Part shown: piece by piece, positions 14,247 to 33,492 of the stretch
Numbering within the stretch: the stretch's first letter is position 1
How the letters are laid out: the number at the start of each line of letters is the position of its first letter
IMG/VR virus record: IMGVR_UViG_3300022074_000047
Span: 1-56,553 of that record
Source of the DNA: a virus
DNA length: 56,553 nucleotides
Strand: one strand, 5' to 3'
Position numbers and translations under genes: made by a program
Notes under the pieces: generated by a model
The model's database searches: none
Seen by the model: only the letters and a program-made list of their open reading frames with translations
Told to the model about the DNA's origin: nothing

Positions 14247-14358
14247 TCAAAAAAAGCTAAAGAAAGTAGTCAAAGGCCTAAACAAAGCTTCTAAGCTACA
14301 CGCAAAGCAAGCCAAAACTATCCGGTCTGTACTAAAGACTAAGAAATCCAAGACCTAG
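14233..14358 (+). CDS. Lysine-rich 41-residue protein
   Basis: The frame from ATG 14233 to TAG 14356-14358 encodes 41 residues, over a third of them Lys or Arg, with the central motif KVVKGLNKASKLHAKQAKT. Short proteins with this KGLxKASKxHAxQAK pattern occur near structural genes of marine phages, so it is likely real. It overlaps the 3' end of the convergent SNF2 helicase by 20 bases. The function is unknown; nucleic-acid binding is plausible. Confidence 0.5.
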   Translation: MKKNNQKKLKKVVKGLNKASKLHAKQAKTIRSVLKTKKSKT

Positions 14359-15787
14359 CGTCTTCGCCCAACACTTGTTGTGCAAGGTTTATCTTTTCTC
14401 TCAGGGCCTGTAGTATCTTTTCATCGATAGTTTCTGGCGCTACTAAATCTACATAAGTAACCTTGTTCGTCTGACCAATACGGTGCGCTCTGTCTTCAGA
14501 CTGCAAACGTATTTCTAAATCATAACTGTTGCTATAATACACCACCGTGCTTGCGGCGGTCAAAGTAATACCATACCCACCCGTTCTTGGTTGCCCCACA
14601 AAGAAACGTAGGGGATCTTCAAGGTCTTGATAACGTTGTACAATCTCTTGACGCTCCTCTTGTGGGGTTTCACCATAGTAGGTTGCAACCGCTTCGGGCC
14701 CAAAGCGGTCGCGCAGGGCCTTCGCTATCTGTTGGATGTCGTAGGTATATGTCGCCCAAATGATAGCTTTTCCCTGTACTTCTTCACATATATCGAGCAG
14801 TTCTTTCAACCGCCCGTTTGCGAAACTCACTGTATTACCCTCATCATCTTGTATATGACCACAGCATATCTGTTGCAGACGCATGATCTGTGTCAGCACG
14901 CTCTGTGTCGTGGCTAATTCGCCATTGTCAAGCTTGGTAAGGGCCAAACGTTTCATCTCCGTGTACGACCGTTTCTGCTCCTCGGATAATGGAACAAGAC
15001 GGCGTACATACATTTTATCCGGCAGATCCAGACAATCTTCTTTCAACACACGATTACTAAACGCCTCGAGCTTTTCGTTGAGCTCATCTAATCGTCTGTA
15101 TCCTACCACTTCATTAAAGGATCGCGGTCCCATAAAACGCTTTTGCAACACCGCATAGCGGTTTTGAAACGCATAAAAACTCTGAAAGTTTAGTGCCAAA
15201 GTAGATAAGAACATACATTGGCTAAACAAATCCATAGGACTACGGGTCACGGGAGAGCCGGTAAGTATACGTCTATACTTAGACAGTCCCTTCATCTCTA
15301 ATATATTCTTTGTACGGTTTGCACTTCTATTCTTAATAGTCGTGCTTTCATCTACTATCACTATGTTCTCATCATTAGCCTCAAGAAACGTAAGTGCCGC
15401 CTGCGTCCCGCGAGGCGTGGACAACGCTTCGGTGTTCATCACAAATATTTTAAGGCCATCAAACTTTTCATATACCAACGTTTTCATTTGTTTCTGAAAC
15501 CATTGCGCACTGGAGGGTTGCCATCGCACCATATTAATGGGTATGTCCTCCGACAAGTGTGTCGGTATCTCGCCTTGCACCCAGTTATCGTATACCCCCT
15601 TGGGCGATATAATAAGTGCTGCGTTTATTTTGCCCTCTGTATATAAGGCCCCCATCGTATCTATAGCCACCTTAGATTTACCTGTACCCATCTCCATAAA
15701 CAGTGCATAATACTTTGCGTCCCACGAATCACGGAGCGCTGTCATCTGATGATCGAAGGGTTTCGTTTTAAATTTATATTTTTTCAT
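14339..15787 (-). CDS. SNF2/SF2-family DNA helicase
   Basis: The 482-residue protein has the SNF2-type helicase layout. Walker A is at residues 34-38 (GTGKS), a motif II equivalent VDEST is near 150, LTGSPVTRSP is motif III-like, and the second RecA domain carries KAIIWATYTYDIQQIA. A motif V/VI region follows (GGYGITLTAA, then SEDRAHRIGQTNKV). It would translocate on or remodel duplex DNA and probably acts in replication or recombination. It is the only sizeable gene on this strand and is transcribed away from the SSB/primase operon from an overlapping divergent promoter region. Confidence 0.88.
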   Translation of the reverse strand: MKKYKFKTKPFDHQMTALRDSWDAKYYALFMEMGTGKSKVAIDTMGALYTEGKINAALIISPKGVYDNWVQGEIPTHLSEDIPINMVRWQPSSAQWFQKQMKTLVYEKFDGLKIFVMNTEALSTPRGTQAALTFLEANDENIVIVDESTTIKNRSANRTKNILEMKGLSKYRRILTGSPVTRSPMDLFSQCMFLSTLALNFQSFYAFQNRYAVLQKRFMGPRSFNEVVGYRRLDELNEKLEAFSNRVLKEDCLDLPDKMYVRRLVPLSEEQKRSYTEMKRLALTKLDNGELATTQSVLTQIMRLQQICCGHIQDDEGNTVSFANGRLKELLDICEEVQGKAIIWATYTYDIQQIAKALRDRFGPEAVATYYGETPQEERQEIVQRYQDLEDPLRFFVGQPRTGGYGITLTAASTVVYYSNSYDLEIRLQSEDRAHRIGQTNKVTYVDLVAPETIDEKILQALREKINLAQQVLGEDARSWIS

Positions 15788-30555: not shown

Positions 30556-30576
30556 AGCCCGCCCATGGCCGAGATT

Positions 30577-30603
30577 AAGCCCGCTTCGCGCGGGCTTTTT
30601 TTT
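30577..30603 (+). terminator. Intrinsic terminator ending the accessory region
   Basis: AAGCCCGC pairs with GCGGGCTT, followed by eight or more T. It ends transcription before the non-coding region. Confidence 0.85.
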
Positions 30604-30960
30604 GTTCGCTATTTCCAGTTAAATCCGCAACGGCCCGCCGTCCGCGTGCGATCGTAAACCTACGAGCCCCGCGACCCATGGCCCGAGATCCGCCGAGATC
30701 CGCCGAGATCCGCCGAGATCCACGGCCCGCGATCCTAGACCCGCCACGTGACGCGGCTGCACCCTTTTTTAAGATCCGCGACCCGAGATCCGCGACGGCT
30801 GCAGCGGATCCGCGAACCATGGCCCCCCGCCCAAGGTTAAAAATTTTCTTCTAGGGGCCCCCGCATATCGGGTCAATTAACGGGGCCCGAGATCCAAAAA
30901 TCGCGATAAAATGACAACGGCCCGGTGTTTTGCAAGCGTTAGCTTGCGCCATGTTTTTCA
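30604..30960. repeat. Non-coding GATC-rich repeat cluster
   Basis: There is no convincing gene here. CCGAGATC occurs six times (30683, 30693, 30703, 30713, 30783, 30887); the first four are exactly 10 bases apart. CCATGGCC recurs at 30564, 30677 and 30818, and GCGGATCCGC is a palindrome (30804-30813). About ten GATC sites lie within 250 bases. GCAAGC-GTTA-GCTTGC (about 30932-30947) is a further hairpin. The block may bind a protein in phase on one DNA face. Confidence 0.55.
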
Positions 30961-30986
30961 CGAATAATCATACAAAAAATCGTATG

Positions 30987-31006
30987 AATGTTTCACGTGA
31001 AACATT
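30987..31006. promoter_or_regulatory. parS: parS-like ParB-binding palindrome
   Basis: Positions 30989-31004 read TGTTTCACGTGAAACA, the bacterial chromosomal parS consensus, and the palindrome extends to 20 bases. ParB (Spo0J) binds this site and spreads to organise and segregate chromosomes. No ParB or ParA gene is seen in the window, so any partner would come from the host or lie outside. Confidence 0.8.
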
Positions 31007-31034
31007 GCCTAATTATTGTGCAGAAAAAAGGTTC

Positions 31035-31063
31035 TTGTTAACTGCCTAAAAAACGTGCATATT
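31035..31063 (+). promoter_or_regulatory. Possible promoter for the packaging operon
   Basis: TTGTTA (31035-31040 read as t-t-g-t-t-a from 31035) and CATATT (31058-31063) are 17 bases apart. TTGTTAAC recurs at 31035-31042 and 31072-31079. The boxes are weak matches. Confidence 0.3.
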
Positions 31064-31098
31064 ATTCGTGTTTGTTAACCATCAACCGAGGTCCGAGA

Positions 31099-31719
31099 AT
31101 GAGGAAGCGCAGAGTAGGCAAAACGGGAATACGCCAAGAGACTCGTGGTCGAAAACCCGCCACCATAAAAACCCCTTTGACACGAAAGCAGGAGCTGTTT
31201 GTCCGCGAGCTTGTCAGCAAGGATGGGCAGATAACTATGCGCGAAGCGGCAGAGAATGCCGGGTATAGTGCAACGAGTGCCCATACGCGAGCGTATGAGT
31301 TAACGAACCAACATATCTCGCCTCATGTGGTTCATGCGATAAGAGAGTACCGTCGTGCTTTGGATGAGAAATATAGTATTACGTTCTCACGACACGTGCG
31401 GGATTTGCAGCGTATTCGGGACGAGGCATTAGCGAATGGTGCGTACTCGGCAGCGGTGCAGGCGGAGTTTCGCCGTGGTATGGCGCAGGGTGATATATAT
31501 GTAAGTAAATCGGAGATACGACACGGGAGCATAGACAGTATGTCTAAGGAAGAAGTTATGAAAGCATTGAAAGAGATAAAGGAGAGTTATGCCCCAGTCA
31601 CAATCGACATCACCCCAGAAGAGGATAACGATAGCCGTGAAGAAGGAGAGCGGCTTTTACAAACAAGTGAAGGAAGCGGCACAGAGAGTAAGTCGAAAGC
31701 TGTCGCTAACGCGAATTGA
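31099..31719 (+). CDS. terS: Terminase small subunit
   Basis: The 206-residue product is taken from ATG 31099; an upstream TTG at 31072 is possible but less likely. After a basic N-terminus come LTRKQELFVRELVSKDGQITMREAAENAGY and a helical region, the helix-turn-helix of Terminase_2-type small subunits that recognise packaging DNA. Its binding site may be the repeat region just upstream. It overlaps the nuclease-like gene by 131 bases. Confidence 0.75.
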   Translation: MRKRRVGKTGIRQETRGRKPATIKTPLTRKQELFVRELVSKDGQITMREAAENAGYSATSAHTRAYELTNQHISPHVVHAIREYRRALDEKYSITFSRHVRDLQRIRDEALANGAYSAAVQAEFRRGMAQGDIYVSKSEIRHGSIDSMSKEEVMKALKEIKESYAPVTIDITPEEDNDSREEGERLLQTSEGSGTESKSKAVANAN

Positions 31720-32047
31720 AAACTGGGTCGGAGCAGGAATCCCAGACGTCTTGCTCTGTGATATCCATGGTTGTTTTCATTTTGTTGAGCTCAAGTTTAC
31801 GACGACGAATAAAGTAGATCTGCGCCCGTCGCAGGTAGCGTGGCTCACGAAACACAAACACGCTTCGTGTTGGATATTAATTAAGAAACAGGCAAAGCCG
31901 TCCGAGCGAGCAGAATTATTTTTGTTTAAGGCGGAAGATGCGATAGATTTGAAGATGGATGGGTTGAAAGATAAGAAGCCGGAGTTTCATTGTATGCAGC
32001 CGTTTCGTTGGGACGATATGTTTTTTAAAATCGCAGGGGCCCCCTGA
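31589..32047 (+). CDS. PD-(D/E)XK nuclease-like protein
   Basis: The 152-residue product starts at ATG 31589 behind AAGGAGAG. It has IENWVGAGIPDVLLCDIHGCFHFVELK (split here), the E...GxPD...ExK arrangement of VRR-NUC/Holliday-resolvase-type nucleases. It may trim branched DNA before packaging. It lies between the two terminase genes. Its first 44 codons overlap the small subunit gene, and a GTG further in is an alternative start. Confidence 0.65.
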   Translation: MPQSQSTSPQKRITIAVKKESGFYKQVKEAAQRVSRKLSLTRIENWVGAGIPDVLLCDIHGCFHFVELKFTTTNKVDLRPSQVAWLTKHKHASCWILIKKQAKPSERAELFLFKAEDAIDLKMDGLKDKKPEFHCMQPFRWDDMFFKIAGAP

Positions 32048-33492
32048 TGGATGTTTCGGAGCAGGAGGCCAAGCTTACGCTGCGACTGGCACAATTAGAA
32101 AAACACGAAAGGTGTCAGGAAGATTTTTTAATTTTTGTAAAAAATATGTGGCCGGATTTTATTGCCGGTCGGCACCATAAGATTATTGCCGAGAAGTTAG
32201 AGCGTGTGGCCAAGGGCGAGCTGAAGCGTTTGATTATCAATATGGCGCCAAGACATACGAAGTCGGAGTTTGCAAGCTTCTTGTTTCCGGCGTGGATGAT
32301 GGGCCGTAATCCAAAGATGAAGATTATTCAGGCGACGCACACCACGGAGTTGGCCGTGAACTTTGGACGTAAGACCAAGAACCTTATTGATAGTGATGAG
32401 TACAAGGATATCTTTCCGACGGTGAATTTGTCCGCCGACAGTAAAGCATCCGGTCGTTGGGACACGACATCGGGGGGTATGTACTATGCGGTGGGGGTTG
32501 GTTCCAACTTAGCGGGTCGTGGTGGAGACTTGGTGATTATAGATGACCCGCACTCGGAGCAGACGGCGATGTCTAATTCGGGTTTTGATGATGCGTGGGA
32601 CTGGTATACTGGGGGCCCCCGACAGAGACTACAGCCGGGAGGTAGTATTGTTTTGGTACAGACCCGGTGGTCCGAGAAGGATATGACGGGACAGTTGATG
32701 CGTGCGATGGCGAAGGATGAATTAGCGGACCAGTGGGAAGTTGTAGAGTTACCGGCGATCTTTACGGATGGCAGTCCCTGTTGGCCGGAGTTCTGGAGCC
32801 TCGAGGATTTAACGGCGGTGAAGGCGTCGATACCCCCTAGTAAATGGAATGCGCAGTATCAGCAGAATCCGACGGGTGAGGAGAACGCAATTATACCGCG
32901 TGAGTGGTGGCAGAAGTGGGAGAAGGAGAGTATTCCCAATCTGGAGTATGTTATTCAGAGTTACGATACGGCGTTCACGAAGAAGGAGACATCGGACTAT
33001 AGCGCGATTACTACATGGGGTGTTTTTTATCCCGAAGAAGCGGGGGGTCCCCCGGCGTTGATCCTTCTTGATAGTCAGAAGGATAGGTGGGACTTTCCTG
33101 AGTTGAAGCAGGTAGCGTTGGAGCAATATAAGTACTGGGAGCCGGATACGATTATAATAGAGGCGAAGGCGACGGGGCTGCCCTTGACCCACGAACTACG
33201 GAACATGGGTATACCTGTTGTCAACTTTACACCGAGTAAGGGTAATGATAAGGTGACGCGCGTGCACTCTGTATCGGTTCTTTTTGAAGCAGGCATGGTG
33301 TACGCACCAGACACGAAGTTTGCGGATGAGATGATAGAGGAGGTTGCGGCTTTTCCAAATGGGGAGTATGATGACCTTGTGGATAGTATGACACAGGCTT
33401 TGATGCGGTATCGTCAGGGCAACTTTGTGCAGCTACCAAGTGACGATTGGGAAGAAGAGGATAACAACGTGCAAGTAAAAGCGTACTACTGA
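32047..33492 (+). CDS. terL: Terminase large subunit
   Basis: The 481-residue protein has the motor and nuclease parts. The ATPase P-loop is atypical (APRHTKS, residues 67-73), followed by LVIIDDPHSE with D166/D167. The RNase H-like nuclease has SYDTAF (D307), IIIEAK (E372) and YDDLVDS (D442, D446). It would power DNA packaging through the portal and cut concatemers. It directly follows the nuclease-like gene, overlapping it by one base. Confidence 0.92.
   Translation: MDVSEQEAKLTLRLAQLEKHERCQEDFLIFVKNMWPDFIAGRHHKIIAEKLERVAKGELKRLIINMAPRHTKSEFASFLFPAWMMGRNPKMKIIQATHTTELAVNFGRKTKNLIDSDEYKDIFPTVNLSADSKASGRWDTTSGGMYYAVGVGSNLAGRGGDLVIIDDPHSEQTAMSNSGFDDAWDWYTGGPRQRLQPGGSIVLVQTRWSEKDMTGQLMRAMAKDELADQWEVVELPAIFTDGSPCWPEFWSLEDLTAVKASIPPSKWNAQYQQNPTGEENAIIPREWWQKWEKESIPNLEYVIQSYDTAFTKKETSDYSAITTWGVFYPEEAGGPPALILLDSQKDRWDFPELKQVALEQYKYWEPDTIIIEAKATGLPLTHELRNMGIPVVNFTPSKGNDKVTRVHSVSVLFEAGMVYAPDTKFADEMIEEVAAFPNGEYDDLVDSMTQALMRYRQGNFVQLPSDDWEEEDNNVQVKAYY

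Follow-up and report, generated by a model that had tools for sequence, protein, structure and literature searches.

Why should a phage in which no parB gene can be detected carry a perfect copy of the bacterial chromosomal parS site directly before its terminase genes? ParB-parS is among the most conserved of the bacterial DNA-segregation systems, and such a site could be a coincidence, an operator of the phage itself or a borrowed centromere. The window, that is, the whole stretch of DNA that was analyzed, is an entire viral record of 56,553 bases, and the features of the locus that are needed below are as follows:

30556..31071, no strand: leader of the late operon; contains parS and is the largest noncoding gap in the genome
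30950..30968, plus strand: conserved box CATGTTTTTCACGAATAA, 39 bp before parS and retained in relatives without parS
30987..31006, no strand: full 20-bp palindrome AATGTTTCACGTGAAACATT, whose outer two bases on each side vary among relatives
30989..31004, plus strand: exact 16-mer of parS, TGTTTCACGTGAAACA, the only copy in the genome and near-invariant in relatives
31035..31063, plus strand: putative late promoter of the sigma70 type, 30 bp after parS (TTGTTA - 17 bp - CATATT)
31072..31719, plus strand: terminase small subunit-like (TerS) gene, the first after parS (phrog_51, 6e-8; Terminase_2, 4e-5, a match just under the curated cut-off)
31589..32047, plus strand: small nuclease-like gene between TerS and TerL (phrog_2165, phrog_93)
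32047..33492, plus strand: terminase large subunit (TerL) gene (phrog_38, 1.5e-107), the query with which relatives were collected

The preliminary description had reported a perfect 16-base parS consensus within a 20-base palindrome, in noncoding DNA before the terminase genes, and both elements and their placement were found to be exactly so. The 16-mer has no mismatches, fits the chromosomal-type consensus TGTTNCACGTGNAACA and is identical to the parS DNA in the crystal structure of Caulobacter ParB (PMC8367383). The gap that holds it directly precedes the terminase genes and the late operon and comprises 516 of the ~2,449 noncoding bases of the genome. A scan of the remainder of the record, which had been proposed as a check, returned no further copy, TGTTTCACGTGAAACA being the sole match in the window at up to three mismatches; the chance of an exact 16-mer in 56.5 kb is ~1.3e-5 (56,553 x 4^-16). 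The candidate promoter is strongly conserved across relatives as TTGTTAAC...GCATATT, and a consensus scan of this region called the overlapping hexamers TTAACT/TATTAT instead. Two further repeats were noted around the leader. The first, GGGGCCCC, occurs three times (30854-30861, 32036-32043 and 32612-32619; 0.31 expected), with copies on either side of the leader and, in nearly all relatives inspected, one immediately preceding the start codon of TerL, and is possibly a ribosome-binding or packaging element. The second is an inverted repeat, TTGCCTA-N5/6-TAGGCAA, located after parS in many relatives (including the leaders of L138, L139, L149 and L169) and partial in the window, at 31005-31024.

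The gene content of the window resembles that of annotated cultured relatives. Its TerL is 63% identical to that of Pelagibacter phage HTVC027P and 56% identical to that of HTVC023P, pelagiphages (PMC9599517) of the same TerL group and of similar gene content and order, and homologs of the TerL, portal, major capsid protein (MCP) and primase-helicase-PolA module of the HTVC023P-type group were all identified. The replication genes encode an AEP-type primase, a UvrD helicase and a family-A polymerase, and further profile matches were to portal, holin and major head proteins. A SNF2-type helicase gene (14339-15787, minus strand) is the only long minus-strand gene annotated. Profile searches of the window and the long relatives, in which control genomes were positive, gave no match for ParB_N, for ParA-type AAA_31 or for phage integrase, which upholds the earlier statement that the window is without ParA and ParB; as such, we found no complete ParABS with its own parA and parB of the kind carried by phage-plasmids such as P1. 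The gene search that covered integrase also found no plasmid replication or lysogeny genes, and a tRNA search of the window found none. The lifestyle of the phage looks lytic.

Relatives, most of which are contig fragments, were collected by TerL, a procedure blind to parS, and the 76 with at least 160 nt of upstream sequence were considered usable. Exact parS was present in the same 1.3-kb leader in 62 of these, and parS with no more than one mismatch in 65; two of the 11 parS-negative relatives (L131 and L170) end just before the expected position. Outside the leader, exact parS was found 0 times in 839 kb of sequence from the TerL relatives. The preliminary description had named absence or degeneration in close relatives as the outcome that would count against the site, and the search of those relatives found it to be almost invariant instead. 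In pairwise comparisons of 21 dereplicated leaders, in whose "down" set L143, L149, L169 and L211 were apparently misassigned, identity was 0.988 for parS versus 0.697 for the 40 bp to its left and 0.547 for the spacer to its right, a difference which, together with the 62 exact relatives, indicates that the parS sequence is maintained by selection. The distance from parS to the -35 box was 29-31 bp in 46 of the 50 leaders of the parS-upstream class, and that from the start of the CATGTTTTTCACGAATAA box to the start of parS was 38-40 bp in 49 of 59 nonidentical leaders, with spacing exceptions of 74 bp and 6 bp. The automatic labels for the side of the promoter are crude (L186 and L191, labeled "up", and L092, labeled "down", were apparently also misassigned), and placements were decided by reading the sequences. 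The leaders of L149 and L169 hold two copies of the TTGCCTA/TAGGCAA repeat, which would account for their 74-bp spacing. In most relatives the TerS and nuclease genes lie upstream of the parS leader and the leader directly precedes TerL, so it is with the leader, and not with any one gene, that parS is associated.

Across the wider family the position of the site turns over. In a quick TerL tree, placement of parS upstream of the promoter defines one clade of 43 rows (support 97) with few losses. In a neighboring clade parS is in the same leader but on the downstream side of the promoter, and frequently TGTTCCACGTGGAACA (the C-form) and TGTTTCACGTGAAACA (the T-form) stand in tandem, 24 bp apart. 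Natural losses within the parS clade were seen in L148 and in L151/L160, and in such leaders both flanking boxes are kept and parS and the spacer are missing. Among natural relatives, L144 and L154, for example, have parS, and L155, like L151, does not. There was no exact parS in the available sequence of the clade of L193 (~62 TerL relatives) or in that of the pelagiphage clade. More distant members have parS in the polA-TerS gap (often as two copies ~150-250 bp apart), near the portal gene, near the MCP gene or after TerL, some of these sites being squeezed into tiny gaps or gene ends. Among the matches listed, which are samples and not a census, gene sharing with the family was seen for about 50 of 120 viral loci with the T-form and more than 30 of 119 with the C-form, a few of them through one weak hit only. 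Most long family genomes have one parS or one tight pair. We consider that these data show parS to recur in the phage family in two dialects and at several genomic positions. A conserved host protein is the best explanation for the reader of a site that changes position and occurs in both dialects, and since some lineages are without parS, the site would be advantageous in some hosts and not essential.

Two candidate observations were set aside in the course of this survey. HTVC023P is without parS, and a 15/16 match in HTVC027P (L194:15897, record 16412) encodes AFHVKHP within the nuclease gene; synonymous changes in relatives destroy its palindrome, and it was rejected as a conserved pelagiphage parS and attributed to coding coincidence. 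This case shows that a palindrome match alone is insufficient. A location of parS near a replication origin was also discarded, as GC skew is nearly of one sign along the genome and gives no origin signal.

Sites of this type are also found beyond the family. The parS 20-mer was matched in at least 120 stretches in IMG/VR and in dozens in INPHARED, where 212 records had 17-20 matching bases, whereas a control 20-bp palindrome with the same CACGTG core had 0 matches in either collection. Of 152 parS sites in viral loci, 80 lie outside ORFs of ≥100 aa, compared with 24.4 expected. Isolate phages with parS include those of Bacillus, Lactobacillus, Ruegeria, Butyrivibrio, Gordonia, Microbacterium and Arthrobacter, and there are also inovirus-like genomes. 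ParB_N was matched in 5 of 50 records; outside the family, some loci may represent host DNA in viral bins or phage-plasmids that encode a ParB, and the conclusion on the family is independent of them. Three further cases were recorded. The 169-kb viral contig L040 has seven parS or near-parS sites of mixed T and C dialects within 6.4 kb, and no ParB_N match was found across its whole record. The bajarodino viruses (PQ006097-PQ006178), with genomes of ~6 kb and a Zot-like gene, have 10-12 parS matches, equivalent to 5-6 palindromic sites if both strands were counted. Many Microbacterium phages have an 18-bp parS match within an annotated DNA-binding protein gene (e.g., NC_047988, 43533-43550), which may reflect coincidence or autoregulation.

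The MAG bins that contain relatives belong to Verrucomicrobia, Planctomycetes and Maricaulis. In the bins of Planctomycetaceae and Maricaulis, T-form parS was found close to parB. In sampled Verrucomicrobiales genomes, the T-form was present in 0 of 37 and the C-form in 27 of 37, and in the NP53 bin (Verrucomicrobiales) the only T-form match was the phage contig itself. Because the sampled Verrucomicrobiales use only TGTTCCACGTGGAACA, either the NP53 bin or that host assignment is doubtful, and we did not accept this order as a host suggested by the bins. The Verrucomicrobiales dialect of parS may be useful for host prediction.

In light of the above, the palindrome is probably a selected loading site for the chromosomal ParB of the host that was captured by the phage. 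Since no ParA or ParB is detectable in the phage family, its reader is almost certainly the borrowed chromosomal protein of the host. During infection, ParB-CTP clamps would load at parS on the phage genome and slide across the late-operon control region and the neighboring genes, and the phage chromosome would thereby be placed inside the host partition complex. We infer ParB binding, clamp spreading and the benefit of parS to the phage; the site itself, its purifying conservation, the lack of a recognizable phage ParB or ParA and the recurrence of parS elsewhere and in both dialects are what the sequences show. Possible benefits listed in the preliminary description were segregation, condensation or concealment of the phage DNA and titration of ParB from the chromosome.

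The likeliest consequence in the lineage of the window, which we put forward tentatively, is a brake on the late genes, with retention of the phage genome close behind and titration of ParB thereafter. ParB clamps beside the promoter would hold the terminase and structural genes off until replication diluted ParB, and the effect would fade as replicating phage copies outnumbered host ParB, i.e., it would act as a copy-number timer. We favor this reading for two reasons, the location of the site at the late promoter and the known repression by chromosomal ParB of transcription near intergenic parS: the intergenic sites parS3 and parS4, upstream of PA0011 and PA0013, repress the adjoining promoters, as does ParB at a test promoter carrying an inserted parS (PMC5521831, PMC7022226). 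These Pseudomonas aeruginosa sites are of the same 16-bp class as that of the window and are likewise intergenic and promoter-adjacent (PMC5521831), although those sites belong to the host chromosome, lie close to oriC and have parAB alongside, for which no match was found in the window phage. Consistent with a brake, parS of the window clade is always in the late leader at the near-fixed spacing given above, and the neighboring clade has it in the same leader, downstream of the promoter. However, other clades of the family have parS by portal, MCP or TerS, which weakens a strict late-promoter operator as the general function; in addition, the effects of chromosomal ParB on adjacent genes are usually small, with none in B. 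subtilis (PMC7022226), the 74-bp and 6-bp exceptions depart from the spacing, and the leader, as the largest noncoding gap, could be mere free space.

A second specific form, which we regard as somewhat unlikely as the principal function, is that the ParABS/SMC machinery of the host tethers, orders or partitions the phage genome, which would thereby survive and be inherited when an infection is slow, starved or deferred. Retention of this kind is tolerant of position, most long genomes have one site or one tight pair, a single parS suffices for chromosomal partition (PMC7022226), and there are precedents in phi29 with Spo0J (as cited in PMC9437464) and in SGI1 (PMC10954446). Given that integrase, plasmid replication and lysogeny genes were not found, it would need a dormant state that has not been observed. 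It is improbable that the site serves as a sink, with the replicating phage DNA drawing off ParB by titration and so disturbing chromosome segregation or the control of replication in the host: SGI1 does use parS copies in this manner against its helper plasmid (PMC10954446), but a decoy would favor arrays over the one or two sites per genome of most members, and there is little obvious gain to a lytic phage. It is very improbable, too, that the site is the operator of a regulator encoded by the phage and matches parS by coincidence. The promoter-proximal palindrome and its near-fixed spacing would suit such an operator, but not its recurrence at unrelated positions, in a second form of parS and among unrelated phages with unrelated hosts, nor would an operator be expected to track the bacterial centromere consensus. 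Chance, already judged very unlikely in the preliminary description, is refuted to near certainty by the conservation data, with ~1e-5 matches expected per genome, an invariant parS in diverged leaders and control palindromes without matches.

Phage phi29, in which spore entrapment is dependent on Spo0J (ParB) (Meijer et al. 2005, as cited in PMC9437464), is, like the phage of the window, virulent and exploits a chromosome-segregation protein of its host (a prediction in the present case), and the window phage matches this type in having parS with no ParB of its own. The phi29-like phages B103, Goe1 and Chedec 11 contain parS-like 19-mers, but those of B103 and Chedec 11 are inside annotated late genes, whereas the window site is intergenic, at the late leader; phi29 also acts in sporulation under Spo0A control, whereas the window belongs to a marine podovirus-like family with hosts not known to sporulate. 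SGI1 is similarly a mobile element that has parS copies without partner genes and uses the ParB of another replicon, that of the IncC plasmid parABS (PMC10954446), as we predict for the window phage with host ParB. It differs in being an integrative element and not a phage, in targeting a plasmid and not a chromosomal ParB, and in that its binding and stability were shown by experiment (PMC10954446). A broader parallel is provided by the CtrA-binding sites of Alphaproteobacteria phages, associated with "lytic deferment" (PMC9437464), where unrelated phages have repeatedly gained sites for a host cell-cycle protein, although CtrA is a transcription factor and ParB a clamp-forming centromere protein.

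No dedicated report of natural phage-borne parS was found in the open-access literature searched, and relative to phi29-Spo0J and SGI1-parS we likewise found no account there of the non-sporulation marine setting, the family-wide use, the two dialects or the positional turnover described here. It is quite possible, if short of probable, that an abundant lytic marine phage family uses the host centromere, with lineages repeatedly gaining or moving parS in the dialect of the host (TGTTTC...GAAACA or TGTTCC...GGAACA) and host ParB timing the late genes or carrying the genome. Cultured phage-host pairs in which parS is present include the phages of Ruegeria pomeroyi DSS-3, such as DSS3P8 and vB_RpoS-V10, phi29-like Bacillus phages and Lactobacillus phages. 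If the reading is true, the parS dialect could help to predict the hosts of uncultivated phages. A perfect parS in a family without ParB suggests a use of the host centromere protein by lytic phages beyond the one known setting, that of phi29 in sporulation.
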